A stretch of 35,681 nt of DNA, taken from assembly GCF_016786325.1 (NCBI RefSeq), contig NZ_JADWYU010000193.1, positions 1 to 35,681 on the forward strand. The letters run 5' to 3'. Shown here one piece after another: positions 7,687-26,176 of this stretch. This stretch comes from Frankia nepalensis (GTDB lineage: Bacteria > Actinomycetota > Actinomycetes > Frankiales > Frankiaceae). Position numbers and translations under genes: made by a program. The notes below the pieces were generated by a model. The model saw only the letters and a list, made by a program, of their open reading frames with translations. It had not been told where the DNA came from and did no database searches. Each line of letters opens with the position of its first letter. The stretch's first letter is position 1.

Positions 7687-7827
7687 ACGTGCTAAACCGC
7701 GCGCCGCCCGGCGCCACGATCCTGCCGCGAGAGACCGGACTTGAGATTCGATTGAAGGTCCCAGCCTCGGCGCGATGATCTTCGGGTGTTCCTGGAGATC
7801 GCGGTAGGGCGGACCCGGAGGTGGACG

Positions 7828-8574
7828 ATGGCGGTGTACCCGGATTTCGGTGCCGTGCTCCGGGGGCTGGTGGACCGGCGGGGGTTGAGCCTTCGCGACC
7901 TGGCGCGGCGGGTGGAGGTATCGGAGGACGGGCTCAAGGCCCAGCTGCGTGGAGCGGTGCCGGACGGGTCGATCCTTCGCCGGCTCGCGCCCACGCTTGG
8001 ACTACACGCCGCGGACCTGTTCGCCCTGGCGCAGGTGGCCGTTCCGGAAGATCTCGCTCCTCTGGACGGAACGGCGAGGGAGGAAGTCCCTGGCCTCGTT
8101 TCGCTCGCCGTCTGCCTGTCGCCGGAGCGTCGAGACCAGCTACGGCGGTATGCCAGGTCGCTGCCACAGCATGGCCGTGTCGAGCCGGTCGCGCGGCCCC
8201 GACCGCACCACCGGTACCCGCCGGGCCCGGGTGCGGTGCTCATGTACATGCTCGCCAACCGGAACCTGGACTGGGACGGCTCGGCCCAGGTGCTCGCCCG
8301 ACTGACACCCGTTTACCTATCCGCGTCCACGATCGGGAGAACCGGTCATGGCCTTGAGCATCTGACCCCTGCCCTGGTCGAGGCCTTCGCGACTGTTCTG
8401 GGCGTCGATCCCGGTGATCTGGCGGGCTTCTGCGGGGTCGGACCGGTCGATCCAGACAGGTCGCTGGACCCAGCGGCGGCCGCCATCGCCGAGCTGATCT
8501 GGGATCTTCGCCGGCTGACCGCCGGCCAGGTCCGAGATGTGCGCAAGCATGCAAGGCTTCTGGCGAGTCCGTGA
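7828..8574 (+). CDS. Double helix-turn-helix (XRE-like) regulator, family copy 4
   Basis: A 248-residue relative of the protein at 3435. ATG 7828 follows GGAGGTGGACG. The first HTH covers about residues 5-60 (VLRGLVDRRGLSLRDLARRV, EVSEDGLKAQLRG), followed by LRRLAPTLGLHAADLFALAQ. The second domain covers about 140-205 (RYPPGPGAVLMYMLANRNL; LVEAFATVLGVDPGDLAGF) and the C-terminal helix is AELIWDLRRLTAGQVRDVRK. It begins 141 bases after the immunity-like gene at 7228, on the same strand, and could be co-transcribed with it. The intervening leader shares a segment with the remnant at 7076. The DNA or partner it binds is unknown. Confidence 0.78.
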   Translation: MAVYPDFGAVLRGLVDRRGLSLRDLARRVEVSEDGLKAQLRGAVPDGSILRRLAPTLGLHAADLFALAQVAVPEDLAPLDGTAREEVPGLVSLAVCLSPERRDQLRRYARSLPQHGRVEPVARPRPHHRYPPGPGAVLMYMLANRNLDWDGSAQVLARLTPVYLSASTIGRTGHGLEHLTPALVEAFATVLGVDPGDLAGFCGVGPVDPDRSLDPAAAAIAELIWDLRRLTAGQVRDVRKHARLLASP

Positions 8575-8803
8575 GCCGTTGCCGTCCGGCCTGCCTCTGG
8601 CGGGAAGGTAGGCGCGATCGTGAAAGGAACGGAGGGAGGCCCGCCCGGTGAGTCCGTGATCCGACCGTTCGGCGAGGCTGCCGACCGTGGTGCGGGCCGT
8701 AGTTCGCTGCTCCAGCGCGGGTGTCGTCAGGTCGATGGCGTGCCCGCTGGTCGAGTTCTGGGTCGTGGTTGAACTGGGGCGGAACACGAGGTGGGTGGGT
8801 GAG

Positions 8804-9550
8804 ATGGCGGAATACCCAGGCTTTGCGGCGGTGCTCGGGCGGTTGGTGGAGTCGCGGGGGCTCGATGGTCAGGAGCTGTCTCGACGTGCGGACGTGCCTG
8901 AGGAGGAGGTCCGGTCTGTGCTGGGCGGGGTGGTGCCGTCTTCGTCGTTGCTCCATCGGCTCGCGCCGGTGCTCGGTCTGCGCGTCGTGGACCTGTTCGT
9001 GATGGCGCAGGTGACGCCGCCGGAGGAGCTTGCTCCGCTTGACGCACGGGCCGGGCAGATGGTCTCGGGGTTCGTCGCGTTCGCCAGACACCTGTCGTCG
9101 GAAGGCAGGGATCAGCTGAGGCGGTATGTCCGGTCCCTGCCTCAACTGGACGGGCGGCAGCTGTCGCCACCCCGCCGTCACGAGCGGTTCCCGCCCGGGC
9201 CTGGTGGTGTGATGATGCGGCTGTTCGCCAACCGGAACCTGGACCAGTTCGGCGCGGCTGAAGTGCTCGCCTGGCTGACTCCGGTCTATCTTTCCGGATC
9301 GACGTACGGCCGGATAGGGCACGGTTACAAGGAGTTGACTCCCGGCCTGCTTGCGGGCTTCGCGACCGTCCTCGATGTCGAGTTCGACGATCTGGCGGCC
9401 GTCGCGGGGCTCGAGTCCGGTAGCGTGCGCCGAACACCGGATCCGGTGGCGGCCGACATCGCCAGAATGATCTGGGATCTTCGCCGCCTGACCATCGGCC
9501 AGGTCGAGCAGGCCCGCAGGGAGGCGACGCGGCTGCGCTCCTTGCTTTAG
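8804..9550 (+). CDS. Double helix-turn-helix (XRE-like) regulator, family copy 5
   Basis: A 248-residue protein starting MAEYPGFAAVLGRLVESRG at ATG 8804, after GGGTGGGTGAG. The domain order is the same as in copies 1 and 4: first HTH at 5-60, LHRLAPVLGLRVVDLFVMAQ, second domain at 140-205 (FPPGPGGVMMRLFANRNL; LLAGFATVLDVEFDDLAAVA), and a C-terminal helix IWDLRRLTIGQVEQARREA. The pseudogene at 4221 shares VEFDDL with this copy. It precedes the immunity-like gene at 9621 by 70 bases, so the order (regulator then immunity-like) is reversed relative to the 7228-7828 pair. Function unknown; regulator by fold. Confidence 0.78.
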   Translation: MAEYPGFAAVLGRLVESRGLDGQELSRRADVPEEEVRSVLGGVVPSSSLLHRLAPVLGLRVVDLFVMAQVTPPEELAPLDARAGQMVSGFVAFARHLSSEGRDQLRRYVRSLPQLDGRQLSPPRRHERFPPGPGGVMMRLFANRNLDQFGAAEVLAWLTPVYLSGSTYGRIGHGYKELTPGLLAGFATVLDVEFDDLAAVAGLESGSVRRTPDPVAADIARMIWDLRRLTIGQVEQARREATRLRSLL

Positions 9551-13082: not shown

Positions 13083-13158
13083 CCGTGCCGTTCTACTGCT
13101 TGCTGCGAACGGTGCCGGACACCGCGCGTTCCGTGCCGTGCGACCCACTGGGGGATTG

Positions 13159-15519
13159 ATGTCGGTCGTGGTGCGGCTGCTCGGCCATGTGGACGTGACA
13201 GTGGACGGCTCGCCGCGCCCGGTGCCCGGCCTGCGGCGCAAGGCCGTCCTGGCGCGGCTGGCGTTGCGGCTGGGCGAGGTCGTCAGCGCCGACCAGCTGA
13301 TCGACGCGGTGTGGGACGGGAAGCCTCCGACGACGGCGGTGAACTCGCTGCAGAGCCACGTGTCCGCGCTGCGGCGCCTGCTCGGAGTGCCGGACGCGAT
13401 CCGCGCGCAGGCCCCGGGCTACGTGCTGGGCGCCGTGACGACCGACCTTCGCCTGTCCGAAGGACTCGTCGCGCGCGGCCGCGACGCCGCCAGCCCGGCC
13501 GATCGGCTGGCGGCCCTGGAACAGGCCCTGGACCTGTGGCGCGGCCAGCCGCTGGTCGACGTCGCCCGGCTTTCCTGGTTCTCCGACGAGGCGCCCCGAC
13601 TGGAGCGCGCGCGGCGGTCGGCTGAGCGGGCCGCCGTCGAGTGCCGACTGGTGCTTGGCCAGCACGCCGCGCTGGTGCCCGAGCTGACGAGGCTGTGCGA
13701 GCTGCACCCTTTCGACGAGGAGCAGCATGGCCACCTGATGCTCGCGCTCTACCGGTGCGGGCGGCAGGCCGAGGCGCTGGCGGTTTTTCATCGGCTGCGG
13801 GCGCGGCTCGGCGACGAGCTCGGGATCGACCCGGGTGGCCCGGCCCGCGACCTGCAGGCCGCGATCCTGCGTCAGGACCCCGGCCTCGCCCACGCGCCGT
13901 CGCCGGAGCGATCCGGGGCGCCGGCCGGTGCCGGCACGCCGCCCACCGGGCGGGCCCGCGCCACGCGACTCGTGGAACGGGCCGAGGAGATCGCGCTCCT
14001 CGACCGCGCGCTCGCTGAGGTGCAGGTCTCCCGTGCCGGGAGAATATTGATCTTCGAAGGTTCCGGTGGGGCGGGGAAGACGAGCCTGCTCGACCACGCG
14101 AGGAGGCGCGCCGCCGAACGAGGGCTCGCTGTGATGTCGGCGCGCGGCAGCGATCTGGAGACCGACCACGACTGGGGCTGTGTCCGGCAGCTGTTTCCCG
14201 GACAGGCCGGGGTGGAGCTGGATGCCGCGGCGGGACCGCTGTCGGATCGCGAGGCGCCTGGCGGGTACCGGACCATCGCTTCGCTGTACGAGCGGACACG
14301 CGATCTGGCGGTCCGAAGCCCGCTGGTGATCACCTTTGATGACCTGCACTGGGCGGACACGCCGTCGGCACGGTTCCTCGCGTTCCTGGCCGCCCGGCTC
14401 GACGCGTCGCCGACCGTGCTTGTCGTCGGGCTGCGGCCGGGGCATGAGCGCGTCGGGCGGTTCCTCGCGTCCATCGCGGGTCTGCCGTATGCGACCAGCC
14501 GGGTGTTGCGGCCGCTCGGCCGGGACGGCTGCGCTCAGCTGCTCACCGACACACTCGATGCGGTGCCGGACGAGGAGGTCGTCGACCGGTGCCAGGCGCT
14601 CACCCGCGGCAATCCCTTTCTGATGCGGGAACTGGCGAGCAGGCTGTCCGCGGTGGCCGGCGACGTGGAGCGGGCGCTGTCCGACTGTGGGCCGGGCCTG
14701 CGGCGGTTCGTGTCGCGACAGTTTCGCTGCCTCCCGCCCGAGTCGGCGGAACTGGCCCGGGTCCTGGCCGTGCTGGGCGACGGCGCTGGCTGCGACTGGC
14801 TGGCCAAGGCGGCGAGGATGACACCCCGGGAGGCCCTCGACGCGCTGGATCCCCTGGTCTCAGGCCAACTGGTCGTCGCCGAGGGCGCACCGGTTCGCTT
14901 CTCCTTCGAGCATCCCATGATCCGAGACAGCGTCTACGACTCGATTCCCTCGAGGCAACGTGCGGAACTGCACCTGCGCGCGGCCCAGGTCGCCCTGGGC
15001 GGCCATCACTCGATGACGGCGGCGACCCATCTGCTCCGGGTCCCGCCGGGTTTCGGGGACCTCGATCCGCTTACCGTCCTGAGCGAGGCGGCGGATCTCA
15101 GCCTGTCCCGGGGATTGGCGCGTACCGCGGTCAGCTTCCTGCGCCGGATCCTTGAGGAGGATCTGGCCGACCGGCGGGCCGAGATGATGGCGCGACTCGG
15201 CGCGGCCGAGGCCCTCGTCGATGGCCGCGCCACCGTCGAGCCGCGGTCACACACGCGGTTCAGAGCGCAGGGTCCGGATAGGAGCGGGCGGACCTTCGAC
15301 GGCCAGGCCAGCGCGCTTCGGGCGACCGGGGTGACTCAGGGGCGGCGTACGGGCCCGCCAGGTCCCCACCCGACCGTGGTCAGGGGATCACCGAGGACGG
15401 CCGGCGGCTCCCCTCGGGCCACGTCGCCCCAGTGGCGGACGGGATCCGCGACGGCTCCGGTCTCCCGTCGGCCTGGACGCACCTCAGTGCCACATCAGGA
15501 CCGCCTCAGCGGCGCATAG
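13159..15519 (+). CDS. SARP-type regulator with BTAD and AAA ATPase domains (AfsR-like)
   Basis: A 786-residue transcriptional activator. Residues 1-100 form an OmpR-like winged helix (VVRLLGHVDVTVDG; SADQLIDAVWDGKPPTTAVN). Residues 100-250 are the BTAD (LDLWRGQPLVDV; CELHPFDEEQHGHLMLALYR). Residues about 280-600 form an ATPase: Walker A FEGSGGAGKTSL and Walker B LVITFDDLHWAD. The remainder has a helical SFEHPMIRDSVYDSIPSRQR block. Complete relatives continue with TPRs and often a LuxR HTH. Here the frame turns into Arg/Pro-rich low-complexity sequence after AAEALVDG (about residue 690), so the C-terminus is eroded or frameshifted. Start ATG 13159 follows CTGGGGGA. It precedes the repeat-peptide, MFS and TPR genes on the same strand and is their likely activator. 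Confidence 0.85.
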   Translation: MSVVVRLLGHVDVTVDGSPRPVPGLRRKAVLARLALRLGEVVSADQLIDAVWDGKPPTTAVNSLQSHVSALRRLLGVPDAIRAQAPGYVLGAVTTDLRLSEGLVARGRDAASPADRLAALEQALDLWRGQPLVDVARLSWFSDEAPRLERARRSAERAAVECRLVLGQHAALVPELTRLCELHPFDEEQHGHLMLALYRCGRQAEALAVFHRLRARLGDELGIDPGGPARDLQAAILRQDPGLAHAPSPERSGAPAGAGTPPTGRARATRLVERAEEIALLDRALAEVQVSRAGRILIFEGSGGAGKTSLLDHARRRAAERGLAVMSARGSDLETDHDWGCVRQLFPGQAGVELDAAAGPLSDREAPGGYRTIASLYERTRDLAVRSPLVITFDDLHWADTPSARFLAFLAARLDASPTVLVVGLRPGHERVGRFLASIAGLPYATSRVLRPLGRDGCAQLLTDTLDAVPDEEVVDRCQALTRGNPFLMRELASRLSAVAGDVERALSDCGPGLRRFVSRQFRCLPPESAELARVLAVLGDGAGCDWLAKAARMTPREALDALDPLVSGQLVVAEGAPVRFSFEHPMIRDSVYDSIPSRQRAELHLRAAQVALGGHHSMTAATHLLRVPPGFGDLDPLTVLSEAADLSLSRGLARTAVSFLRRILEEDLADRRAEMMARLGAAEALVDGRATVEPRSHTRFRAQGPDRSGRTFDGQASALRATGVTQGRRTGPPGPHPTVVRGSPRTAGGSPRATSPQWRTGSATAPVSRRPGRTSVPHQDRLSGA

Positions 15520-15562: not shown

Positions 15563-15606
15563 ACCGGCCGCATCGGACTGACTGCCGAGAAAGGACCAGA
15601 ACCGCG

Positions 15607-15822
15607 ATGGAAACCCGACCCGCCGGGCGGAGTACCGCTACGAGCCACACCGAGATTTACCTTCCGGAGCCTTCGCGGAGGACCCCGGACCGCGACCGGA
15701 TCGTGCTGGCTCCGCCGTGCCTGGAGCCGGGGCTCATGAACCACAACCAGATCGTGCTGGCTCCGCCGTCCGCGGATCCGGGGATCGAACTGAACCACAA
15801 CCAGATCGTGCTGGCTGGCTGA
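15607..15822 (+). CDS. 71-residue repeat peptide, candidate multi-core RiPP precursor
   Basis: Starts at ATG 15607 with AAAGGA upstream; an in-frame ATG further up (15553) is less likely. Residues 1-27 are a polar, Thr/Arg-rich leader (METRPAGRSTATSHT, then EIYLPEPSRRTP). Three repeats follow: DRDRIVLAPP (28-37), NHNQIVLAPP (45-54) and NHNQIVLAG (63-71). The spacers are CLEPGLM and SADPGIEL. The last copy ends the protein. At DNA level the second and third cores share the same 24 bases, while the first differs in the polar half but keeps IVLAPP. Leader plus repeated hydrophobic cores plus Pro/Gly spacers is the build of multi-core RiPP precursors. SARP, exporter and TPR genes are neighbours, and no known modifying enzyme (lanthionine synthetase, radical SAM, YcaO, ATP-grasp) is in this window. 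A signal peptide is absent. Family unknown to me. Confidence 0.55.
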   Translation: METRPAGRSTATSHTEIYLPEPSRRTPDRDRIVLAPPCLEPGLMNHNQIVLAPPSADPGIELNHNQIVLAG

Positions 15823-15902
15823 GCCGTGCGGCGCCACGTTTCGACGGCCGCGGAGGACCGCGTCGCGAAACGGGGCGCCGGCCGCTGAGGAGAAGCATCG
15901 TC

Positions 15903-15948
15903 CCGGCTGGCCTTGTCCGGCCCGCGCGGGCCGGACAAAGCCAGCCGG
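15903..15948. terminator. 46-nt hairpin (attenuator) between repeat peptide and MFS gene
   Basis: Arms of 23 nt (CCGGCTGGCCTTGTCCGG and on; complement ending at 15948) pair with one mismatch and no spacer. There is no T-tract. It sits after the peptide stop (15822) and before the MFS start (15990). Such hairpins let precursor mRNA outnumber the downstream transporter mRNA, by partial termination or 3'-end protection. A smaller stem CGTTTCG/CGAAACG flanks 15837-15872. Confidence 0.55.
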
Positions 15949-15989
15949 TGACAGCTGACAATCCGCCGTGGGCGGCGAGGACGGTTTCG

Positions 15990-17444
15990 GTGAATGACGT
16001 CGCTGGCGGGCGGCCACGGCTGTCGCGGCCGGTCCGGCTGGTCCTGGGCGGCCAGTTCGTGTCGGCGGTCGGATCGGGCGCGACCATTCCTTACCTGTTC
16101 GTCTATCTCCATCAGGCGCGCGGCCTGACCGCGGGCGTGGTCGGAGCACTGCTCACGGCGCGCGCGGTGGGGGCGGTCGCCGGCGCCATCCTCGGCGGGG
16201 CCTGGGCGGACCGGGCCGGGCCGAAGGCCGCGACCTGGCGGGGCCTGGCCGCGGCCGCGGCCGCGACGGCCGCCCTCGCCCTGGTGCGGGACCCGGTCCT
16301 GGGCGTCGTCGTCCTCGCGGCCTTCGGGGTAGCCCTGGCCGCGGCCACGACCTCGATGTACGCGCTGCTGGGCGCCGCCGCCTCCGCCGAGGAACGACCG
16401 CGGGCCTTCGGCCTGAACTACCTGCTGACCAATGCCGGCGGGGCCGGCGGCGCGGTCCTGGCCGCGCTGGCGCTGGCCGTCTGGCCCGCGGCCGCGGCCT
16501 ACCCCGTGCTGTACCTGGCGGACGCGGCCACCTTCGCGTTCTTCGCGGTCCTCATCGCCGGCCAGGTGGCGCCCGCGGGCACGTCGCCGGCCCGGGAGAC
16601 GCCGGCGGAGGCCGCCGAGCGGCCGGGGTACCGGATGGTCGCCGCCGATCCCGCCCTTCGCTGGCTGGTCGTCGTCACCTTCGCCCTGGTGGCCGCGGGC
16701 CACAGCCAGATGCACGCGAGCATTCCCGTCGTCGCGGCCGCGCGCGAACTGCCCACCGCCGGGCTGGGATGGGTGTACGCCGCGAACATGGCCGCGGTCG
16801 TGCTGCTGGCGGCCCCGGTCCGGCGGCTGTCCGCTCGCTGGCGGCGAACCTCCAGCCTGCTCCTCGCGATCGGCCTCATGGTGGCCGCCTGGATGTTGGC
16901 GCAGACCTGCGGGAGCCTTGGCATCCCGGCACTCGTGGCCGCCGGTGTCGTGTTCGCCGGCGCCGAGGTCTTCCTCGCTCCGGTGCTGGCCGCGACGGTG
17001 AACGACCTCGCGCCGCCTGCCCTGCGCGGCCGCTACAACGGGATGCACACACTCGCCTGGACCGCCGGCTGGCTGAGCGGCACCGCCGCCACGGCGGCCC
17101 TGCTGGCCGTCGGCGCCACCGAGCTGGTCTTCCCCCTGCTCGTTCTCGTACTCGCGTTCACGGCGCTGGCGGTCCGCCCCCTGCGCCGCCATCTCCCACC
17201 CGCCCTGGACCAGTTGCCGCGACTCGGGGCCGACCCCGGCGCGGAACGCGGGGCGGGCCTTGGGCAGCCCGCGACGCCTCCCGAGGCCGCTGTGCCTCCC
17301 GAGGCCGTGGTTCCTGCCGAGGCCGCGGAGGCTCTGGAGCCAGCGGCGCCCAGGGAGACGGCGCCCCGGAACACGGCGGGCCGCGTGTTGGCCAGCCACG
17401 GCGCGGACGGGCCGCGCACTCGGAGGGAAGCGGTGCACCCATGA
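15990..17444 (+). CDS. Major facilitator superfamily transporter
   Basis: A 484-residue membrane protein of MFS type with about 12 hydrophobic segments, beginning after LSRPVRLVLGGQFVSAVGSG. Between helices 2 and 3 the segment GGAWADRAGPKAATWRG matches the MFS signature GxxxDRxGxR. A similar loop RGRYNGMHTLAWTAGWLSG lies in the C-terminal half. The last 80 residues are a cytoplasmic Ala/Pro/Glu-rich tail. I chose GTG 15990 because GAGGA stands eight bases before it; earlier in-frame starts would overlap the peptide gene and the hairpin. The stop overlaps the TPR gene start (ATGA). As neighbour of the repeat peptide it could export the mature product; the substrate is otherwise unknown. Confidence 0.82.
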   Translation: MNDVAGGRPRLSRPVRLVLGGQFVSAVGSGATIPYLFVYLHQARGLTAGVVGALLTARAVGAVAGAILGGAWADRAGPKAATWRGLAAAAAATAALALVRDPVLGVVVLAAFGVALAAATTSMYALLGAAASAEERPRAFGLNYLLTNAGGAGGAVLAALALAVWPAAAAYPVLYLADAATFAFFAVLIAGQVAPAGTSPARETPAEAAERPGYRMVAADPALRWLVVVTFALVAAGHSQMHASIPVVAAARELPTAGLGWVYAANMAAVVLLAAPVRRLSARWRRTSSLLLAIGLMVAAWMLAQTCGSLGIPALVAAGVVFAGAEVFLAPVLAATVNDLAPPALRGRYNGMHTLAWTAGWLSGTAATAALLAVGATELVFPLLVLVLAFTALAVRPLRRHLPPALDQLPRLGADPGAERGAGLGQPATPPEAAVPPEAVVPAEAAEALEPAAPRETAPRNTAGRVLASHGADGPRTRREAVHP

Positions 17445-18391
17445 ACCAGCGAACCGGCGGCCTCGGCGGGTCCGCCCCGGTGATCGATCCGGCCGAGGAC
17501 CGGCTGCGTGCGAGGATCCGCCGCGCCCCGGCGACGCCGGATGGCACCAGGGAACGGCTCGACGGCCAGCGGGCGCTGGCCGCGCACTGGCGCCACCGGG
17601 GTGACTACCGCCGCGCCGGCCTGCTCCTCACCCTCACCCTCGCCGGCGCGGACGCGCTTGTCGACCGGCCCAACCTGCTGGCGGCGAGGATCTGCACCGA
17701 GATCGGCGTGCTCGGCAAGTACGCCGGCCACTTCGCGCGGGCCGAGCGGTCCTACCAGCGCGCCCTGGAGATCTTCCAGGAGGCTCATGGTGCCGAGCAC
17801 GACACGGTCGCGACGATCTGTCACAACCTCGGCGGGCTGGCGCACGCTCGTGGGCACCACGTCGGCGGCGAGGTGTGGGCCCGTCGTGCCGTCGAGATCC
17901 GCGTCCGGATCCACGGCCCGGATCACGTCGACGTCGCCGCCGACCGCGGCGCCTGGGCGGCGCTGCTCGACGGATGCGGCCGCCACGACGAGGCCGAGGC
18001 GCAGCTCCGCGCGGCGCTGGCCGTCTTTCGGCGTGCCTATGGCGACGAGCACTACGAGGTCGCGGTGACGCTGCACAACCTCGCGGCCCTTCGGCAGCGT
18101 CGTGGCTGGTTCCCGGAGGCGATCGAGGGCTTCCGCGAGGCGCTGGCGCTCAAGGAACGGCTCCTGGGCGTCGATCATCCGGATCTCGCACCCACCCTCG
18201 TCAACCTCGCGACCGCGTACCGGCATCTGCGCCGTGGGTCGTCCGCCGGAGCGCACTACGCGCGCGCCGTCGCGGTGCTCAGCGACCGCGTCGACCCAGA
18301 CCACCCCCTTCTGGCCGCCGCCCAGGACGGCCTCGCCGCCGTGGCAACCGGGCGCGTGTCCCGGGTTCCATCCGGCCTCGGACACGGATAG
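17441..18391 (+). CDS. Tetratricopeptide repeat protein
   Basis: A 316-residue cytoplasmic protein with four or five kinesin-light-chain type TPR units of about 42 residues: HFARAERSYQRALEIFQEAH, TICHNLGGLAHARGHHVGGE, RHDEAEAQLRAALAVFRRAY, TLHNLAALRQRRGWFPEAIE and TLVNLATAYRHLRRGSSAGA. The repeated GxDHPxxA and HNLGxL elements are typical. Such repeats bind peptides or protein partners. ATG 17441 overlaps the MFS stop by four bases, so it is translated with the transporter. It may be a scaffold or leader-binding partner for the repeat peptide; this is inference from context. Confidence 0.8.
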   Translation: MNQRTGGLGGSAPVIDPAEDRLRARIRRAPATPDGTRERLDGQRALAAHWRHRGDYRRAGLLLTLTLAGADALVDRPNLLAARICTEIGVLGKYAGHFARAERSYQRALEIFQEAHGAEHDTVATICHNLGGLAHARGHHVGGEVWARRAVEIRVRIHGPDHVDVAADRGAWAALLDGCGRHDEAEAQLRAALAVFRRAYGDEHYEVAVTLHNLAALRQRRGWFPEAIEGFREALALKERLLGVDHPDLAPTLVNLATAYRHLRRGSSAGAHYARAVAVLSDRVDPDHPLLAAAQDGLAAVATGRVSRVPSGLGHG

Positions 18392-18413: not shown

Positions 18414-19757
18414 TCAGCCGCGCTCGGGGGGTGCGTTGATCGGCCTCGGCGGGGCGATCACCAGGCTGTGGCCGACGCCAGCGGAGACCTGGCGGACACC
18501 GGTGAGCGCCGGGATCTGAGAGGCGCCGTAGCTGCCCGCGCCCGAGAAGCCAAGACCCAGCTGCCCGTGAAAGTTCGAGCCCCAGGTCCACACCGTTCCG
18601 TCGGCCCGCAGCGCCATGGTGTGCTCGCGTTTGTTCGAGACCTCGACCATGTCGGTGGGCAGGTGCGTGACCGGCGCCGGGAAGGAGCCGGGCGCGACGT
18701 TGGCTCCCAGTTCGAAGTTGTCGTTGCAGCCCCAGCCGAGCACCCGGCCCTTGTAGCCGTCGGCGGCCGAGACAGCCAGGGTGTTCTCCCTGCCGGCCGA
18801 CACCTGAAGGACATCGCTGATTCGAGGGATCCGCACCGGCTGGGTGTGGATGTCGGCCGAGTTCGTGCCCGGCGCCAGCTGGCCGCAGACATTCTTGCCC
18901 CAGCCCCAGACGGTGCCGTCCGCGCGCAGCGCGACGCTGTGGAACGCGCCGGCGCTGAGCTGGGTGACGTCCTCGATGCCGTGGATCTGCACGGGAGCAC
19001 GGAAAATAGGCCCGAGGAGTGTTCCCAGCTGGCCGTGCTCGGTGTAGCCCCAGCCCCAGACCGTGCCGTCGGCCTTCAGCGCGAGGTTGTGACCCTCGCC
19101 CGCCGAGATCTGCGTGACGCCGGTCAGGCCGGGCACCGGCTTGGGAGTCGCGTCCTTCTCGGTGTCCTGACCGTCCCCGAGCTGCCCGTACCGGTTGTCG
19201 CCCCAGGCCCACACGGTGCCGTCGGAACGGAGCGCCAGGACGTGGGCACCGCCGGCCGCGACCTGGGTGAAGCCGGTGAGGCCGGGCACCTTGAAAGGCT
19301 TGTTCTGGTCGCCGGTCGTCGGGTCGCCCAGCTGGCCCTGGAAGTTCGTGCCCCAGGTCCAGACGTTGCCGTCGTCGTCCAGCGCGACGCTGACGTTGGA
19401 TCCGGCCGAGATGTCGGTCAGGTTGGGCAGGCCGACGGCATTCACCGGGCCGGGCCTTCTCGTATTCGTCCCGTCGCCCACCTGACCGGCGTTGTTGTCG
19501 CCCCAGGCGACGCCCGTGCGCAGCAGCGCGGGCGTCGGCGCCGCGCTCGCGGGTGTCGCCACCAGGATCGTGGCGGTCGCGGTGGTGGTCAGCGCGGCGG
19601 CCAGCGCCGCCGCCCAGGCGCCCCGACCGCGCCGACCGCGCCGGCCGCGCCGGCCGCGCCAGGCCCGGCCGCGAACGCCAGCCGAGCCCGGACGCGAGCC
19701 GGCCACGGCCACTTCCGGCTCGGGGACCGTCCCCAGATCCCCCGATCGGAACTTCAT
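18414..19757 (-). CDS. Secreted RCC1-repeat beta-propeller protein, paralogue 1
   Basis: A 447-residue protein. ATG 19757 follows GAGGAGACG. A long Arg-rich n-region (residues 1-45) leads into a hydrophobic stretch AWAAALAAALTTTATATILV and a probable cleavage site after ATPASA, so it is exported. The mature part has seven RCC1 repeats, each with a WGxNxxGQLG core: WGDNNAGQVGDGT, WGTNFQGQLGD, WGDNRYGQLGDGQ, WGYTEHGQLGT, WGKNVCGQLAPG, WGCNDNFELG and WGSNFHGQLGLG, alternating with SAG...ALRADGTVW segments. Seven repeats make one closed seven-bladed propeller. Two Cys residues (NVCG, WGCN) could form a disulfide. The binding partner is unknown. It is paralogous to 20069-21388. Confidence 0.88.
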   Translation of the reverse strand: MKFRSGDLGTVPEPEVAVAGSRPGSAGVRGRAWRGRRGRRGRRGRGAWAAALAAALTTTATATILVATPASAAPTPALLRTGVAWGDNNAGQVGDGTNTRRPGPVNAVGLPNLTDISAGSNVSVALDDDGNVWTWGTNFQGQLGDPTTGDQNKPFKVPGLTGFTQVAAGGAHVLALRSDGTVWAWGDNRYGQLGDGQDTEKDATPKPVPGLTGVTQISAGEGHNLALKADGTVWGWGYTEHGQLGTLLGPIFRAPVQIHGIEDVTQLSAGAFHSVALRADGTVWGWGKNVCGQLAPGTNSADIHTQPVRIPRISDVLQVSAGRENTLAVSAADGYKGRVLGWGCNDNFELGANVAPGSFPAPVTHLPTDMVEVSNKREHTMALRADGTVWTWGSNFHGQLGLGFSGAGSYGASQIPALTGVRQVSAGVGHSLVIAPPRPINAPPERG

Positions 19758-19838
19758 GTCCGTCTCCTCGCGAGAAACTCCCAAGGAGGCCGGCCACCCG
19801 AGCGAATCCACCACGCCGCGGGATGCCGCCAGGCGGGG

Positions 19839-20068: not shown

Positions 20069-21388
20069 TCAGCCGCGATCGAGGGGTATGTTGCCCGAAA
20101 TGGGTGGGGCGATCGCCAGGCTGTGGGCGTAGCCCGCCGCGACGTGGCGGACGCCCCTGAGCCCCGGGACCTGGGAGGCGCCATAATAGCCGCCCGTGAT
20201 GCCGATGCCGAGCTGCCCGCGGTTGTTCGCGCCCCAGGTCCACACCGTTCCGTCGGCGCGCAGCGCCATCGTGTGCGTCCTGCGGTGCGACACCTCGACC
20301 ATGTCGGTGGGCAGGTAGTCGACCGGCACCGGGAAGGTGATGGGCCAGATCTCGCTTGCCAGCTCGCCGTTGGAGTTGCAGCCCCAGCCGAGTACCCGGC
20401 CCTGGTAGCCGTCGGCCGAGACCACCAGCGTGTTCTCCCGGCCGGCCGAGACCTGGAGGACGCCGCTGAGCCGGGGGATCCGCACCGGCACGGTGTGAAC
20501 GGCGTTCCAGCTCGTCGCCGGCGACACCTGTCCGCAGCCATTGGAGCCCCAGGCCCAGACGCTGCCGTCCGTCCGTAGCGCGACGCTGTGGAAGGTGCCA
20601 GCGCTGAGCTGGGCGACGACCTTGCCGATGCCGTGGATCTGCACGGGAGTGTAGATGACCTGCTGGGCGAGGGTTCCCAGCTGGCCGTATTCGTTGTAGC
20701 CCCAGCCCCAGACCGTGCCGTCGGCCTTCAGCGCGAGGTTGTGGCCCTCGCCCGCCGAGATCTGCTTGACGTCGGTCAGGCCGGGCACCGGCTTGGGGGT
20801 GGCGTCCTGCTCGGGGCCCTGACCGGCCCCGAGCTGCCCGTACCGGTTGTCGCCCCAGGCCCACACGGTGCCATCGGAACGGAGCGCCAGGACGTGGGCA
20901 CCGCCGGCCGTGACCTGGGTGACACGGGTGAGACCCGGCACCTTGATCGGCGTGCCGTGGGGCGTCGTCGTCCCGTCGCCGAGCTCGCCCTGGGTGTTCG
21001 TGCCCCAGGCCCAGACGTTGCCGAGCTCGTCCAGCGCCACGCTGAAGGCGCCACTGCTACCGGCCGACATGGCGGTCAGGTTGGGCAGGCCGACGGTGTT
21101 CACCGGGCGGTTCCGGGCTGTCATCGTCCCGTCGCCGAGCTCGCCGTAGTTGTTCGAGCCCCAGCTGAGGCCCGTGGCGACCGGCGCCGCCGGCGCCTGG
21201 GCGCCCGCGGGTGTCGCCACCAGGATCGTGGCGGTCGTTGTGGTGGTCAGCACGGCGGCTAGCGCCGCCGCCCAGGCGCTCCGGCCACGCCGGGCCCCGC
21301 GCCGAACGCTGGACGATGCCGGACGCGGGCCGACCAGGGCCTCCTCCGGCTCGGGCACCGTTGCCAGGCCCCCCGATCGGGACTTCAT
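20069..21388 (-). CDS. Secreted RCC1-repeat beta-propeller protein, paralogue 2
   Basis: A 439-residue relative of the protein at 18414. ATG 21388 has a strong AAGGAGG site. The N-terminus has the same plan, an Arg-rich region and then AWAAALAAVLTTTTTATILV and a cleavage site near ATPAGAQA. The seven RCC1 units are WGSNNYGELGDGT, WGTNTQGELGDGT, WGDNRYGQLGAGQ, WGYNEYGQLGT, WGSNGCGQVSP, WGCNSNGELA and WGANNRGQLGIG. Blades three and four are almost identical to paralogue 1 while blades five to seven diverge, so the binding surface may differ between the two. The genes lie in tandem on the minus strand, 310 bases apart, each with its own copy of the upstream repeat. The spacing and separate leaders suggest separate promoters. 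Confidence 0.88.
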   Translation of the reverse strand: MKSRSGGLATVPEPEEALVGPRPASSSVRRGARRGRSAWAAALAAVLTTTTTATILVATPAGAQAPAAPVATGLSWGSNNYGELGDGTMTARNRPVNTVGLPNLTAMSAGSSGAFSVALDELGNVWAWGTNTQGELGDGTTTPHGTPIKVPGLTRVTQVTAGGAHVLALRSDGTVWAWGDNRYGQLGAGQGPEQDATPKPVPGLTDVKQISAGEGHNLALKADGTVWGWGYNEYGQLGTLAQQVIYTPVQIHGIGKVVAQLSAGTFHSVALRTDGSVWAWGSNGCGQVSPATSWNAVHTVPVRIPRLSGVLQVSAGRENTLVVSADGYQGRVLGWGCNSNGELASEIWPITFPVPVDYLPTDMVEVSHRRTHTMALRADGTVWTWGANNRGQLGIGITGGYYGASQVPGLRGVRHVAAGYAHSLAIAPPISGNIPLDRG

Positions 21389-21467
21389 TTTCTGCCTCCT
21401 TGCGAGATCTTCACCAAGGAGGCCGGCCATCCGAGCGAACGCATTGCGTCGCGCCGCAAAGCGAGGC

Positions 21468-21975: not shown

Positions 21976-22123
21976 CGGCTGTGTTTCCCTGTCGCACCAG
22001 AAGCAGGACAACGACGTCCCACGGCGTCGCCGGGACGCTGAATCGATTCTTGAGAAGAAGACCAGGGCCGCGATTGTCGGGCCCGCGGTGATCCGTGTCC
22101 GTGAGCCAGACAGGAAGACACCC

Positions 22124-23119
22124 ATGACCATCACCGCTCCGACCACTGCTGGTACCGCCGGGGCCCAGCCCGCGGTGGCCGAGCAGGCGCCGCCTGCGCC
22201 GTCGCCGGTCGCCGGGTACGGCGACGGGCCGCGGGCGCGGAGCATGCCCGGAAGGGGGGCCGTGGAAATCCGGCTGCTCGGGCCGCCCGTGATCGAGCAA
22301 CACGGCCGGGCGGTCCGGCCGCCGCGGGGGCGCAAGGTGTGGGCGCTGCTGTGCTACCTGGTGCTGGCGGACCGCGCGCCCTGCCGCCGGCACCTGGCCG
22401 ACCTGCTGTTCGACGGGGCGGACGACCCAATGGGCGCGCTGCGCTGGATCCTCGCCGAACTGCGACGAGCGCTGGCAGCCCCGGACGTCTTCCGGGGCGA
22501 CCCGGTGGACACGACACTTGGAGACGACGTCTGGGTCGACGTCCTCCTGCTCACCCGGGCACCGGCCGGCCCGGACAGGTCGTTGCTGGAGCTCGACGGC
22601 GAGCTGCTCGAGGGCGTGGAACTCACCGCCGCGCCCGGGTTCGAGTCGTGGCTGCGGGTGCAGCGTCATCGGGTCGCGACCGCGCACGAGGCCCGCCTGC
22701 GCGACGCGGCGGCGGCGCGGCTGGCGGCCGGGCAGGCCGACGACGCCGTCAGATACGCCTCCTACGCGGTGGCGCGTAACCCCCTGGCGGAGGGCAACCA
22801 CGAACTGCTGGTGCGCGCCCTGGTGATGGTCGGTGACCACGCGGCGGCCCGGCGGCAGCTGTTCCTGGCGGACGACCTGTTGCGGCGGGAGTTCGGCGTC
22901 GGCGCGTCCGCTTCGCTTCAGGCGGCGGCGGGGAAACCGGCCGGCAAAGCCCACACGTCGGCACCGCGGACGGGCTCGACGGCGCCGGAGATGTTCGCGA
23001 CGGCGTTGCGGGGGTCGAGAGGTGGGCCCTTGTGGAAGAGCAACGGAACGAGAAGTCCCGCCGCTGGCCGGACCTTCGCGCGGGGATCCCGTAACGATCA
23101 AGCCTACGATCAAGCCTAG
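22124..23119 (+). CDS. SARP-family regulator with BTAD domain
   Basis: A 331-residue protein. ATG 22124 follows CAGGAAGACACCC. After a Pro/Ala-rich 45-residue lead comes the winged-helix DNA-binding domain (VEIRLLGPPVIEQHGRAVRP, PRGRKVWALLCYLVLADRAP, LRWILAELRRAL; about 46-130), then the BTAD (LLEGVELTAAPGFESWLRVQ, AARLAAGQADDAVRYASYAV, NPLAEGNHELLVRALVMVGD; about 140-260). The tail beyond FGVGASASLQAAAG (about 60 residues) is low-complexity and ends in a repeated YDQA-type sequence, while longer SARPs continue with other domains, so it looks truncated. A BTAD fragment follows at 23137. Target genes are unknown; the RCC1 genes and ETF operon lie on the other strand. Confidence 0.8.
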   Translation: MTITAPTTAGTAGAQPAVAEQAPPAPSPVAGYGDGPRARSMPGRGAVEIRLLGPPVIEQHGRAVRPPRGRKVWALLCYLVLADRAPCRRHLADLLFDGADDPMGALRWILAELRRALAAPDVFRGDPVDTTLGDDVWVDVLLLTRAPAGPDRSLLELDGELLEGVELTAAPGFESWLRVQRHRVATAHEARLRDAAAARLAAGQADDAVRYASYAVARNPLAEGNHELLVRALVMVGDHAAARRQLFLADDLLRREFGVGASASLQAAAGKPAGKAHTSAPRTGSTAPEMFATALRGSRGGPLWKSNGTRSPAAGRTFARGSRNDQAYDQA

Positions 23120-23193: not shown

Positions 23194-23306
23194 CGTCGCC
23201 ATCGCCGGCCTGAGCTCACGTGCCGGCCGACGCCGACCACCGATAGTGGCCGCGGCCCAGGACGGCCGAGCCGCGGTGCTGCCTGGTCAGCTCGGGCGCC
23301 CGGAGT

Positions 23307-24302
23307 TCACGACTCCTTCGACGTCAGGTAGCCGTTGCGGGTGAGGTAGGCGAGCAGCGCGTCGGCGGCCTCGGCGGGGGTCGTGGGGCCGACGATCGTG
23401 GGCGGATCGTGGGCGACCAGCGCGCCGGTCAGGGCCAGCAGGCGTTCGCGCGGCGTACCGCCGGTCGGCGGCGGGATGACCCTGGTCCGGGGGCGGTAGG
23501 CGCGGACGCCGGCGACCCGGACCGCCCCGCCCGTGCCGTGTGCCGGCTCGACGACCGGGATGGGGGCGTCGCCGGCGGCCAGCAGCGCGGGCAGGGAGGC
23601 GCGGCGCGGGCGCAGGCCGGCGGCCTCGGCGGAGCAGACCGCGGGCGTCGGGATGCGCAGCCGCTCGCGCCGGCCGCCGTCGAGGCGGCGCTCGCCGAGC
23701 AGCCGCGGGCCGGCCCCCTCGCGCGCCGGCTCGGCGCGCAGGTCGACGAGGCCCAGGGCCGCCGCCGCGCCGAGGGCGTGGGCGAGCTGGGCGGGCAGGG
23801 CGCCGGTGCCGCGGTCGGGGGAGTGGTCGCCGCAGAGCACCAGCGCCGGCTCGCCGACGGTCCGGATCGCGCCGGCCAGCGCCTCGGCGAGCGCGCGGGT
23901 GTCCCCGGCGAGGTCGGCGAGGTAGTCGGTGACCGGGCCGAACGGCTCCGGGTCCCGGCCCGCCGCCAGGCCGGGGCCGTGGGCGTGGGCACCACCGGGG
24001 GCCGCCGCGTGCGCGCCGTCGGCCGGTGGCCAGGCCACCCGCAGCACCTGGGCGCCGAGCGCGGCGGCCGCGCGAAGCGGGCCGTCGGCGATCGGCGGGC
24101 CGGCGGTGACGGCGAGCACCCGGCCCGACCAGGCCTCGGCGAGCGTCAGCGCCCGCTCCAGCGCCGCCTCGTCCGCGGGGGACAGGCCCGCGCCGTGCGG
24201 CGACTGGGTCAGCACCCCGGTCAGCGGGTCGACCTCCGGGCGCAGATCCGTCACCCGCAGGCACACCGCGACCAGCGGCCCGGCCGTGCTCCCCGCCGTC
24301 AT
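23307..24302 (-). CDS. Electron transfer flavoprotein beta subunit, mycofactocin-associated type
   Basis: A 331-residue ETF beta-like protein. ATG 24302 follows AAGGAGACAG. The N-terminus LVAVCLRVTDLRPEVDPLTG and the segment LSPADEAALERALTLAEAW match the ETF beta start (VCVKxV...D..ALE.AL.L.E). ALVLCGDHSPDRGTGALPAQ is the AMP-site segment (G...D...G..P..LA), followed by LAHALGAAAALGLVDLR. It is longer than ordinary ETF beta (about 260) because of inserts near residues 95-115 (His/Gly-rich) and a long C-terminus. With ETF alpha (26169) it would form the FAD-binding heterodimer. It is last in the operon, separated from the ferredoxin gene by a strong hairpin, whereas ETF subunits are usually adjacent. 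Confidence 0.8.
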   Translation of the reverse strand: MTAGSTAGPLVAVCLRVTDLRPEVDPLTGVLTQSPHGAGLSPADEAALERALTLAEAWSGRVLAVTAGPPIADGPLRAAAALGAQVLRVAWPPADGAHAAAPGGAHAHGPGLAAGRDPEPFGPVTDYLADLAGDTRALAEALAGAIRTVGEPALVLCGDHSPDRGTGALPAQLAHALGAAAALGLVDLRAEPAREGAGPRLLGERRLDGGRRERLRIPTPAVCSAEAAGLRPRRASLPALLAAGDAPIPVVEPAHGTGGAVRVAGVRAYRPRTRVIPPPTGGTPRERLLALTGALVAHDPPTIVGPTTPAEAADALLAYLTRNGYLTSKES

Positions 24303-24336
24303 CGATCTGTCTCCTTGGCTGCTGGCCGTCGATCAG

Positions 24337-24374
24337 TCAGACCAACCGCGTCGCCGCTGACGCGGTTGGCCTGA
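24337..24374. terminator. Strong hairpin between ferredoxin and ETF beta genes
   Basis: TCAGACCAACCGCGTC (24337-24352) pairs with GACGCGGTTGGCCTGA (24359-24374) with one mismatch, around GCCGCT. It lies inside the 174-base gap of the minus-strand operon, 35 bases before the ETF beta start codon. It may be an attenuator, an mRNA stabiliser or an operator; a T-tract is missing. Confidence 0.55.
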
Positions 24375-24476
24375 CCAACCGGACGGTGATGGGCGGGGAA
24401 CGGTGAAACGGGGGACGGGGAGGAGGGCTCGGAACGGGGCACGGAGGCGGGTCCGGAGGGAGACATGGGATGCCGG

Positions 24477-24800
24477 TCAGCCCTGGCGGAAGACGACGCC
24501 CTGGCCGCCGTCGGGGTAGGTCCAGGTCAGCGCGCCCTCGCCGTTGCAGACCATGTAGCAGGTGCCGCACTCGAAGCACTGCTCGTAGTTGAACAGGATG
24601 CCGCCGTCCGAGGTCGGCGCGAACAGGTTCGCCGGGCAGGCCGTGACGCAGGCCCGGGTGGTGCACGACCGGCAGACGTCCGAGTCGACGACGATGTGCG
24701 CCCGCTCGCCGACCCGGAAGTCGACGGTCGCCATCCGGTCGTCGAACGCGATGTCGCCGTACCGCCGGTCGCCCGCCGACTTCTTGGGGGTCAGCCTCAT
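24477..24800 (-). CDS. FixX-like ferredoxin
   Basis: A 107-residue iron-sulfur protein. The motifs CRSCTTRACVTACPANLF and CFECGTCYMVCNG carry the Cys residues for the [4Fe-4S] cluster as in FixX and the ETF:quinone oxidoreductase iron-sulfur domain. The N-terminal part (RLTPKKSAGDRRYGDIAFDD) and the segment HIVVDSDVC precede them. ATG 24800 overlaps the stop of the FixC-like gene (ATGA), so both are translated together. Known role of the family: it passes electrons from the FixC-type flavoprotein to the quinone or another acceptor. Cytoplasmic, membrane-associated through FixC. Confidence 0.88.
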   Translation of the reverse strand: MRLTPKKSAGDRRYGDIAFDDRMATVDFRVGERAHIVVDSDVCRSCTTRACVTACPANLFAPTSDGGILFNYEQCFECGTCYMVCNGEGALTWTYPDGGQGVVFRQG

Positions 24801-26176
24801 CGGAACACCTTCCCGATCCTCATGCCGTCGCGGGCGAGCTCGCGCAGGCTGACTCCGTTGCGTTTGGCGGACTGGCGCAGCAGCGCGAGCGCGCCGGGCT
24901 TCGGTTCCGGGTTCGTCACGGTGAACAGGCCCTCGACCAGGTCGGCGACCAGCCCCGGGTAGCGGCGCTGGATCCGCTGGGACAGGATGATCTCCGGGGC
25001 GCCGCGCAGCTTCTTGTGGTCGGCGAGCACGAACTGCTTCTCGAGCTCGTCCCGGTAGCGGCCCAGCCGCTTCTTCGAGGCGTCACCGGCGGCCGCGGCC
25101 TCGGCCGCGACCTTGCCGGCGACGAGCCCGGAGCCGATCGCGAAGTTCACGCCCTCCAGCCAGATCCCGGCGGCGAGCGTCATCCCGGCGGCGTCGCCGG
25201 TCAGCAGCAGGCCGTCGGTGGCCAGCGGCGGCATGTGGTCGTAGCCGCCCTCCGGGATCAGGTGCGCGGCGTACTCCTTCACGGTCGCGCCGCGCAGGTA
25301 GGGCGCGATCGCCGGGTGCGCCTTCAGGCCGGCGATGATCTCCTCGGGGCGTACCTTCGCCTCGACGAGGCCCGGCAGGGCGAGCACCGCGCCGATGCTG
25401 ACCGTGTCGGTGTTCGTGTAGAGGAAGCCGCCGCCGGGGATGCCGCGGGTGCAGCCGAGCATCTCGATGTCGAGGCCCTCCTGCCCGCGCAGCGAGAAGC
25501 GCTCGTCGATCACCTCGCGCGGCAGCGACAGCACCTCCTTGACGCCCAGCGTGTGGTGCTTCGGGTCGGCCTTCGGCAGCAGGCCGGACTCCTTGGCCAG
25601 GAACGAGTTGACCCCGTCCGCGGCGATCACCACCCTGGCGCGCAGCTCGCCGTCGGCGCGGTCGGTGCGCACCCCGACGACCCGGCCGGCGCCGTCACGC
25701 AGCAGCCCGGTCGCGACCGTGGACGTGACGAGCCGCGCGCCGGCGTCCGTCGCCTTGCCGGCGAGCCAGCTGTCGAAGTCGGCCCGGTAGGCCGTCATGC
25801 CGTTGTAGGGCGGCCCGGCCCAGCTCTGGGTGCGGAAGTCGACGGTGAGCGCCTGGGTCTCGGTGAGCACCATCGTGGAGCGGCGGACCACCCAGCGCTC
25901 GACGGGCACCTCCTCCCACCAGTTCGGCAGCACCGTGTCGAGGATCCGGCCGTAGATGACGCCGCCGTAGACGTTCTTCGACCCGGGGAACGGGCCGCGC
26001 TCAAGCAGCACCACCGACGCGCCGGCCCGCGCCGCGGCGAGTGCCGCCGCCGCGCCGGCGGGCCCGGCGCCGACCACGACGACGTCGACGTCCGGCGCCT
26101 GGTCCGCGACCGGGGCGCCCGGCGCGTTGCCGGGCCCCGCGTGCCAGGTGCCCTTCTGAGCCGTCGGGTCAGCCAT
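24797..26176 (-). CDS. FixC-like FAD-dependent dehydrogenase (ETF:quinone oxidoreductase type)
   Basis: A 459-residue flavoprotein. The FAD-binding Rossmann motif is VVVVGAGPAGAAAALAAARA (about residues 34-53), then LLERGPFPGSKNVYGGVIYG, characteristic of FixC/ETF-QO. Further signatures are ARVVIAADGVNSFLAKESGL, YDHMPPLATDGLLLTGDAAG (second FAD-binding motif) and LAAGIWLEGVNFAIGSGLVA (membrane-facing quinone segment). ATG 26176 has GGAGAAAG upstream and overlaps the ETF alpha stop by 8 bases; an upstream GTG at 26191 is possible. Known role: it takes electrons from reduced ETF and, with FixX, reduces the quinone. Here it would link the two OYE-type enzymes or other mycofactocin-dependent enzymes to the respiratory chain; that coupling is inferred from gene order. 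Confidence 0.88.
   Translation of the reverse strand: MADPTAQKGTWHAGPGNAPGAPVADQAPDVDVVVVGAGPAGAAAALAAARAGASVVLLERGPFPGSKNVYGGVIYGRILDTVLPNWWEEVPVERWVVRRSTMVLTETQALTVDFRTQSWAGPPYNGMTAYRADFDSWLAGKATDAGARLVTSTVATGLLRDGAGRVVGVRTDRADGELRARVVIAADGVNSFLAKESGLLPKADPKHHTLGVKEVLSLPREVIDERFSLRGQEGLDIEMLGCTRGIPGGGFLYTNTDTVSIGAVLALPGLVEAKVRPEEIIAGLKAHPAIAPYLRGATVKEYAAHLIPEGGYDHMPPLATDGLLLTGDAAGMTLAAGIWLEGVNFAIGSGLVAGKVAAEAAAAGDASKKRLGRYRDELEKQFVLADHKKLRGAPEIILSQRIQRRYPGLVADLVEGLFTVTNPEPKPGALALLRQSAKRNGVSLRELARDGMRIGKVFR

Follow-up and report, generated by a model that had tools for sequence, protein, structure and literature searches.

Several described systems combine a short peptide with a transporter or a tetratricopeptide repeat (TPR) protein, and they are the closest parallels to the cassette of Frankia nepalensis considered here. 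This cassette lies in a DNA stretch of 35,681 nucleotides (GCF_016786325.1, contig NZ_JADWYU010000193.1, positions 1 to 35,681; hereafter "the window") and encodes a 71-residue multi-core peptide, a major facilitator superfamily (MFS) transporter and a TPR protein resembling kinesin light chain (KLC). According to the available part of the thiovarsolin report (PMC6511847), imperfect repeats of a short core occur in an actinobacterial precursor, together with a YcaO-TfuA pair and an MFS gene; these features recur here, with YcaO-TfuA present in one locus and as remnants in three more. In the std cluster (bioRxiv, PMC13174530, accessible portion), a Streptomyces precursor whose C-terminal motif is conserved is thioamidated at Asn by YcaO-TfuA, and an MFS permease is encoded as well. 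In the FxSxx-COOH systems (PMC7159879, accessible sections), a small, fast-changing protein with a conserved C-terminus is coupled to TPR-bearing proteins, and those sections suggest a toxin or signal role for the peptide of such actinobacterial peptide-processing systems. RRNPP systems, as outlined in the part of PMC10075063 at hand, consist of a propeptide of 10 to 100 amino acids and a TPR protein of 250 to 500 amino acids, ranges into which the window proteins fit (71 and 316 amino acids). The same part describes one RRNPP subfamily that leaves the cell through a dedicated exporter rather than through Sec, and credits linear peptide signals to Bacillota. Finally, KLC TPR domains (6fuz, 6fv0, 6swu) represent the nearest solved fold, several with cargo peptides, some of them C-terminal.

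The window peptide belongs to a real family of actinobacterial peptides which is apparently undescribed. Its members share a core near the C-terminus, [N/Q]-H-x-[Q/E]-x-x-hydrophobic (L, V or I), that is under purifying selection, and their genes are coupled to those of KLC-like TPR proteins and often of MFS transporters. The window cassette consists of the following elements:

15607..15822, + strand: multi-core peptide, 71 amino acids (open reading frame [ORF] and translation; homologous peptides adjoin family TPR genes)
15590..15595, + strand: ribosome-binding-like AAAGGA, 11 bases 5' of the peptide ATG (read in the sequence)
15688..15717, + strand: core copy 1, DRDRIVLAPP (translation; degenerate, without N-H)
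15739..15768, + strand: core copy 2, NHNQIVLAPP (translation; DNA pattern match at 15739)
15793..15819, + strand: core copy 3, NHNQIVLAG, the C-terminus of the peptide (translation; pattern match at 15793)
15990..17444, + strand: MFS transporter, 484 amino acids, probable peptide exporter (PF07690, 5.6e-30; homologous MFS genes in 16 of 25 peptide-TPR pairs)
17441..18391, + strand: KLC-like TPR protein, 316 amino acids, probable core-binding partner (PF13424, 3.4e-33)
13138..15519, + strand: BTAD/AAA_16 regulator ORF of the SARP (Streptomyces antibiotic regulatory protein) type, just 5' of the peptide (Pfam BTAD 9.6e-37, AAA_16 3.8e-16)

The peptide ORF begins with the ATG at 15607, ends with the stop at 15820-15822 and encodes METRPAGRSTATSHTEIYLPEPSRRTPDRDRIVLAPPCLEPGLMNHNQIVLAPPSADPGIELNHNQIVLAG, in which residues 1-27 precede the three repeat copies. 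The G+C content at third codon positions in this frame is 0.82-0.83, and the core DNA of copies 2 and 3 is identical. The MFS start, a GTG, was picked by eye, and the ATG of the TPR gene overlaps the MFS stop codon as ATGA. A first-pass annotation, made from the sequence alone, had described both the 71-residue peptide with its three copies, the last ending the protein, and the same-strand order of SARP-type gene, peptide, MFS and TPR; the ORF and translation agree with the former, the Pfam matches and coordinates with the latter. It had also regarded "IVLA" as the repeat. Three copies do exist, but the part conserved in the family is NHx[Q/E], and the first copy, DRDR, is degenerate.

The main peptide set comprises 24 peptides (26 with those of loci L220 and L222; L, G and C numbers are our labels for loci, genomes and contigs) with 64 cores matching [N/Q]H[N/S/T/V/A][E/Q]. 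The near-invariance of N-H among these cores is partly by construction, as the search pattern demanded N-H, and the degenerate copies DRDR in the window and LNQAVV in L164 were left out of the count. In the 24-peptide set, lengths range from 24 to 129 amino acids and the number of cores from one (L203, L209 and L211) to five. NHx[E/Q] is followed mostly by I/V/T, then V/L, then L/V/I. Examples of core peptides are SYNHNEIVV and GLMNHNQIVLAG. The final core is at the C-terminus or close to it (NHNEILIEA, NHNETVLA, NHNESLIG, NHNEVVL), with at most 13 residues after its NHx[E/Q]. Homologues with these cores occur both in the same genome and in others, and their leaders and spacers vary, the pattern of conserved cores with variable leaders that the first-pass annotation had proposed to look for. 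A lack of homologues with conserved core repeats, named there as grounds for refutation, is thereby contradicted.

Purifying selection is seen on the core. When seven of the eleven orthologous pairs were pooled, pN/pS was 0.29 within the seven-residue core versus 0.86 outside it, with similar pS in both regions (0.18 and 0.22). Ribosome-site scores of at least 4 were obtained at 22 of 23 assumed starts, the exception being L207. The ribosome site, the homologues and the purifying selection on the core indicate that the window ORF probably encodes a ribosomally made precursor, as expected of a ribosomally synthesized and post-translationally modified peptide (RiPP). The first-pass annotation knew no family with this core, which is consistent with our literature searches: six core strings gave only an irrelevant match across 5.39 million PMC texts, and in the accessible literature on actinobacterial RRNPP systems, peptide pheromones and multi-core RiPPs with TPR proteins no description of an NHx[Q/E] family was found. 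The strings "NHN" and "HNE" are absent from the accessible main text of RiPPER, although a network of related peptides could already be shown in its supplement.

The F. nepalensis genome carries three such cassettes, with a common core and different leaders. A tolerant DNA pattern gave four matches with 36-base spacing on contig C372 (L074), within a 69-residue peptide that has AGGAGG 5' of its GTG start and contains NHSQVVL three times and NHNQVVL once. MFS and TPR genes follow, with an ATGA overlap as in the window, and their products are 33% and 38% identical, respectively, to those of the window. The MFS profile search led to contig C67 (L093), where the gene for an 82-residue peptide with two copies of NHAEVVL is divergent from a gene for a single 799-residue MFS-TPR fusion protein. 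This fusion links the MFS and TPR proteins functionally. Three P450-type genes lie around the L093 cassette. A 2-oxoglutarate (2OG) oxygenase gene and a glycosyltransferase gene near L074 were not counted as part of that cassette, since an opposite-strand gene separates both from the peptide.

In other genomes, the MFS profile led to G129, whose TPR protein is 53% identical to that of the window and whose peptide has three NHNEIV cores. The core pattern was scanned over 392 genomes of the genus to which G129 belongs (here labelled Streptomyces-type, because a named Streptomyces plasmid carries peptides near-identical to those of its members G273 and G603) and 393 genomes of the class. The F. 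nepalensis genome aside, close multiple matches occurred at three places, in G129, G589 and G307, all with peptide, MFS and TPR genes; the same three genes are present in G273, which gave a single pattern match only. G589 encodes a second peptide, with the divergent core QHNQAVV, 5' of its own MFS-TPR pair, and a third peptide without a TPR protein of its own. Plasmid NZ_CP130719.1 of Streptomyces sp. NBC_01334 contains two cassettes. In one, the hypothetical protein WP_121413644.1 (two NHNE cores) is followed by the MFS protein WP_327188177.1 and the TPR protein WP_327188176.1, with a LuxR regulator nearby; in the other, the peptide ORF MTQNNQAVVRRAGSMNHNQAVVRRAGSMNHNQAVVAR is followed by WP_327188189.1 (MFS) and WP_327188190.1 (TPR). 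The latter peptide ORF is missing from the PLSDB gene table, which is incomplete by its own description.

The coupling of peptide and TPR genes was examined with a profile (A4) built from eight TPR proteins and hence blind to the peptide. At E<=1e-70, this profile gave 16 matches in 15 of 240 genomes from the family to which G307 belongs; one match was a protein used to build the profile, leaving 15 new loci. By a scripted test, 14 of these 15 loci contain a short ORF with NH[N/S/T/V/A][E/Q] no more than 22 residues from its stop. Such an ORF was seen in none of the 15 reversed loci, in 3.7% of 300 shuffled replicates of the loci and in none of 37 unrelated loci, which were shorter. When 231 Streptomyces-type genomes were then searched, the profile yielded five matches in four genomes, two of them new (L220 and L221), and L220 has a peptide beside its TPR gene. 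Combined, 15 of 17 new TPR loci carry a core-ending short ORF, situated next to the TPR gene or, in a single case, upstream of it within one run of genes. In L199, two genes separate the TPR gene from the peptide ORF, which is about 3 kb upstream of it. We count 25 peptide-TPR pairs (window, L074, L093, L163, two in L164, L165, L166, L199-L211, L213, L214, L220 and L222), 16 of which are adjoined by an MFS gene. The ATGA overlap of MFS and TPR genes was seen in the window and in the two other loci checked. In loci such as L203-L207 the peptide and TPR genes are directly adjacent, and in L203-L207 they form the only unit recognised with the queries used.

In the first alignment, the window TPR protein shares 37-58% identity with the seven other TPR proteins, and 51-58% with three of the four that are Streptomyces-type; the seven unfused TPR proteins measured have 284-439 residues. 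By sequence, its best solved relatives are an engineered TPR protein (9qhb, 1.4e-44) and a kinesin light chain (5fjy, 9.8e-44). Five single-sequence AlphaFold models were made, four of them with predicted local distance difference test (pLDDT) scores of 40-63; the best, with a score of 85, was used and most resembles KLC1 TPR domains (4.5e-11), including structures that have a JIP1 or torsinA C-terminal peptide bound. LGN/Pins and APPBP2 are also near, and no RRNPP receptor was among the 50 matches listed. A KLC-type groove, as modelled, could bind the conserved C-terminal core. Pfam revealed no DNA-binding or output domain in the window TPR protein, and PADLOC anti-phage models gave no match to the window TPR protein, MFS protein or peptide at 1e-5. 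In the TPR tree, the window protein groups with that of L212 (97/93) within a clade of eight rows (96/94) whose other members are from L199, L166, L214, L220 and L163, with one L164 protein; the pairing with L212 is unsure because of the long branch and unusual composition of the latter. The paralogues of the same genome, L074 and L093, group elsewhere with L200 (100/99), so that the window cassette was probably acquired separately from them.

Modification enzymes were found near some cassettes only. L199 has intact YcaO (PF02624, 6.8e-69) and TfuA (PF07812, 8.7e-42) genes between peptide and TPR, whereas the three Streptomyces-type loci L166, L214 and L220 retain, between peptide and MFS, a YcaO start piece of 35-42 amino acids and a TfuA end piece of 46 amino acids. 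The pair is intact in one and truncated in three of the 25 loci examined (window, L074, L093, L163-L166, L199-L214, L220 and L221), and the window is not one of these four. It looks, from these pieces, as if one deletion had removed most of ycaO and tfuA in the three loci while peptide, MFS and TPR stayed; the MFS gene is an open frame in L166, is annotated in L214, and in L220 is known from a 421-residue alignment only. P450 genes lie beside L093 and L211. When the YcaO, TfuA, P450, radical-SAM, ATP-grasp and 2OG-oxygenase proteins from other loci were compared with the window by tblastn, none matched, and the one match obtained was to an ABC ATPase; Pfam on 18 further ORFs, the longer ones of the window, gave no recognised RiPP maturase. 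This bears out the first-pass statement that the usual modification enzymes are missing from the window. The first-pass interpretation is supported insofar as a genuine multi-core peptide family tied to TPR proteins, and often to MFS transporters, exists; the RiPP label itself is unproven for the window peptide.

The gene caller used for clustering the neighbourhoods of 22 loci was crude: it detected the TPR gene in only 15 of them and can miss genes. Besides TPR and MFS, the clusters included SARP-like genes in five loci (that of L165 being a short fragment), LuxR-type genes in four and P450s in four. No such cluster occurred in more than five of the 22, so that the shared extra enzyme gene the first-pass annotation had proposed to look for did not emerge. 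LuxR-type regulators are near the cassettes of L164, L166, L200, L214 and L220, and SARP-like ones near those of the window and L074 and, by BLAST cluster, also L208 and L210.

The reading we favour, with slightly better than even confidence, is that these peptides are multi-core precursors of short exported peptides, recognised by their own KLC-like TPR protein and modified in some lineages. The ORF would be a precursor in which the linear core [N/Q]-H-x-[Q/E]-x-x-[L/V/I] occurs several times, its final copy being C-terminal or nearly so. The TPR protein encoded with it would recognise the core in its groove and bring the precursor, or cleaved cores, to the MFS protein, where an MFS gene is present, for export of a short oligopeptide, and some lineages might modify the product before export, by YcaO-TfuA in one locus and formerly in three more, possibly by P450s in others. 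The MFS-TPR fusion fits the first-pass suggestion that the TPR protein might carry or present the peptide, while the binding of core by TPR that this entails is deduced from gene coupling and fold. The L211 peptide, without an MFS match, has an N-terminal signal-like segment, the sole 17-residue stretch with mean hydropathy above 2 among the 26 peptides, which points to export. The window peptide has no hydrophobic segment (best 17-residue mean, 0.23).

Several observations weigh against this reading. No MFS gene was found in nine of the 25 pairs (the second pair of L164, L199, L203-L207, L211 and L213), which were probed only with the cassettes' own MFS queries at 1e-20, and hydropathy windows gave no signal-like segment in eight of the nine peptides concerned; on such evidence, export is not general. 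No maturase or peptidase common to the family emerged from the 22-locus clustering. Over whole peptides, dN/dS is not uniformly low (0.31 to 1.15 in the ten of eleven pairs giving a value), and repeats within one peptide differ little, even synonymously (4.7 of 92 versus 20.3 of 712, first four core codons), so that comparison within peptides adds little. L212 has a family TPR gene, and no NHx[E/Q] peptide was found there; L221 (G511:C104) has only a distant single-core ORF ending NHAEVVLV near 1381 (- strand), about 7 kb from its family TPR gene. As to core binding, the evidence is the gene coupling and the fold, the latter from a single-sequence model with four of five versions poor.

Should the exported cores re-enter the cell, the TPR protein could instead be a receptor of the RRNPP kind that controls transcription via the neighbouring SARP or LuxR-type regulators. 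The small peptide and TPR protein are indeed the constant pair, standing as the sole unit recognised by the queries used in L203-L207, the L211 peptide resembles a signal sequence, and such regulators lie near several cassettes. However, SARP and LuxR-type regulators are common in actinomycete gene clusters, the window TPR protein is without a DNA-binding or output domain, and its nearest structures are KLC, LGN/Pins and APPBP2, with no RRNPP receptor among the matches listed, leaving this a possible but doubtful explanation. To a similar, limited degree we would credit a conventional antibiotic-like RiPP of thiovarsolin-like design, with its maturases encoded elsewhere in most strains. The YcaO-TfuA genes of L199 and the remnants in three more loci would then be expected, as would the P450s beside L093 and L211, the radical-SAM/DUF5825/P450 set around the L212 TPR gene and the MFS gene, present also in the thiovarsolin cluster as far as the available text describes it. 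Yet the clustering of 22 neighbourhoods showed no common maturase, the MFS and enzyme queries used matched nothing in L203-L207, and L166, L214 and L220 keep peptide, MFS and TPR with YcaO-TfuA reduced to its ends, so that modification seems dispensable there. Signal use and use as a RiPP natural product appear about equally likely.

Multiple cores per peptide would also suit an intracellular docking strip that clusters TPR proteins, the cargo of the MFS protein being something else, and the nine pairs without an MFS match, with eight of nine peptides lacking a signal-like segment, would agree with it. The single-core peptides of L203, L209 and L211 could not cluster anything, though, and neither the MFS-TPR fusion and the coupling nor the signal-like segment of L211 suits an internal strip, which we consider unlikely. 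Slippage alone can make repeats, and copies 2 and 3 of the window are DNA-identical over the core; still, a chance DNA repeat without a translated product is very improbable, given homologues that share the core while differing in leader and spacers, ribosome sites at nearly all assumed starts, a core under purifying selection between orthologues and TPR co-occurrence in 15 of 17 new loci.

A broader and rather unlikely reading is that Actinobacteria possess a peptide communication of their own, with KLC-like TPR receptors, multi-copy pheromone precursors, export by MFS (once by a signal-like leader), thioamidation in some lineages and read-out by SARP/LuxR-type STAND regulators. The TPR profile together with the short terminal core provides a searchable handle for tiny genes that annotation can miss. 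If the TPR protein binds the core, the cassettes would constitute a ligand-receptor-exporter set that is natural and genetically encoded and includes many diverged pairs, which would help to find new RiPPs and allow linear peptide signalling in Actinobacteria to be asked about directly. The truncated YcaO-TfuA genes suggest that maturases are being lost from a peptide whose TPR protein and exporter are retained, which would make modification and core function separable for testing.

As for the window neighbourhood, it is uncertain what part the SARP-type ORF (13138-15519) plays in the cassette. It has no TPR match at its C-terminus, where the 1112-residue homologue in L074 differs, and by eye its last part resembles a read-out of non-coding sequence, so that the ORF may be truncated. 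A consensus promoter scan found none. Pfam on the 18 other window ORFs gave transposases, HTH, ABC, GNAT, RCC1, BTAD, ETF and flavin oxidoreductases. Two RCC1-repeat proteins (18414-19814 and 20069-21430, both - strand; PF00415, 2e-68 and 1e-66) lie directly 3' of the TPR gene on the opposite strand. They are followed by a second BTAD ORF (1e-9) at 22088-23119 (+) and, beyond it, a cluster of electron-transfer-flavoprotein and FAD and FMN oxidoreductase genes at 23287-31836 (-). Near the left window end are transposase-type ORFs (DDE_3, DDE_5) at 2067-3233 (-) and 4487-5893 (-), and three proteins at 3291-4184, 7786-8574 and 8687-9550 (+) look alike by eye, with Pfam assigning HTH_31 to the second and no domain to the first and third.

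Around other cassettes, a 176-residue protein without a Pfam match is encoded 3' of the TPR gene in the Streptomyces-type subgroup (L214, 12903-13433); its L166 homologue is 98% identical, and the L220 homologue was seen only in pieces. A C39-peptidase ABC transporter, a small ORF and an MvdD-like ATP-grasp gene lie directly 3' of the L165 cassette (G307:C32, 4340-9154); in our judgement, the C39-ABC and ATP-grasp genes probably belong to a separate graspetide-type cluster and were therefore left out of the cassette. In L212 (G842:C68, 7295-11990), the family TPR gene is surrounded by genes for a B12 radical-SAM protein, DUF5825 and a P450; this is possibly a different RiPP with the same kind of TPR partner.

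Other searches were less productive. With the 71-residue peptide as sole query no significant homologue was found (best non-self E 0.0018, with a stop inside), as the conserved core is too short. The DNA pattern for NH[N/S]Q[I/V]VL gave nine matches in genome contigs, a scan that the F. nepalensis genome was perhaps outside of; all were rejected by eye as lying in ordinary proteins or unrelated frames. The same pattern gave no match in viral contigs. The MFS bait at 1e-25 matched 3 of 41 genomes of relatives, and the two non-self neighbourhoods were unrelated, with no further cassette; a three-MFS bait at 1e-55 matched 7 of 246 genomes, and among the six loci outside the F. nepalensis genome only L097 had a family TPR gene in its 1.5-kb flanks. 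Single NHx[Q/E] matches were dropped in L075 and L076 on frame context only, and among L103-L182 when no family TPR or MFS match at 1e-12 lay in the stretch, which often covered only 1.5 kb each side. Among the matches listed for the other 34 genomes of the same family as F. nepalensis, the peptide search and core patterns gave scattered single matches only; MFS was searched in 24 of these 34 genomes and the TPR profile in none.

Compared with the known systems, the thiovarsolins, in the part of PMC6511847 available, have the core APR/GPR instead of NHx[Q/E], amidinotransferase and ATP-grasp genes, and no TPR protein described there, while most loci here, the window included, lack a YcaO-TfuA match; adjacent YcaO and TfuA, as in thioamidated RiPPs, were not found in the window. 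The std peptide differs in its motif, SNKEWQE, its one core and its other tailoring enzymes, and no TPR protein is among the genes listed in the accessible portion of PMC13174530. RRNPP systems, as covered in the available part of PMC10075063, belong to Bacillota, whereas the cassettes here are actinobacterial, with a KLC-type TPR protein without a known output domain, repeated cores and, in most pairs, an MFS gene. In the window, moreover, peptide and TPR genes are not adjacent as in RRNPP systems, the MFS gene lying between them in one apparent operon. KLC TPR domains belong to eukaryotic motor adaptors, and the core motif is unrelated. As regards the FxSxx-COOH systems, a C-terminal FxSxx occurs in none of the 24 peptides (the window peptide ends in IVLAG), and neither the metallopeptidase nor the AP-ATPase was among the window ORFs scanned, no profile search for them having been made in other loci. 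The present family also differs from these systems in being multi-core and in often having an MFS gene. FxSxx_TPR is nonetheless the best NCBIfam match of the window TPR protein, below the cut-off (82.6 bits versus 300), and the other two TPR proteins of the genome score 133.5 and 119.1 bits, also under it. The actinobacterial peptide-processing systems of PMC7159879 are a close conceptual parallel to the family described here.

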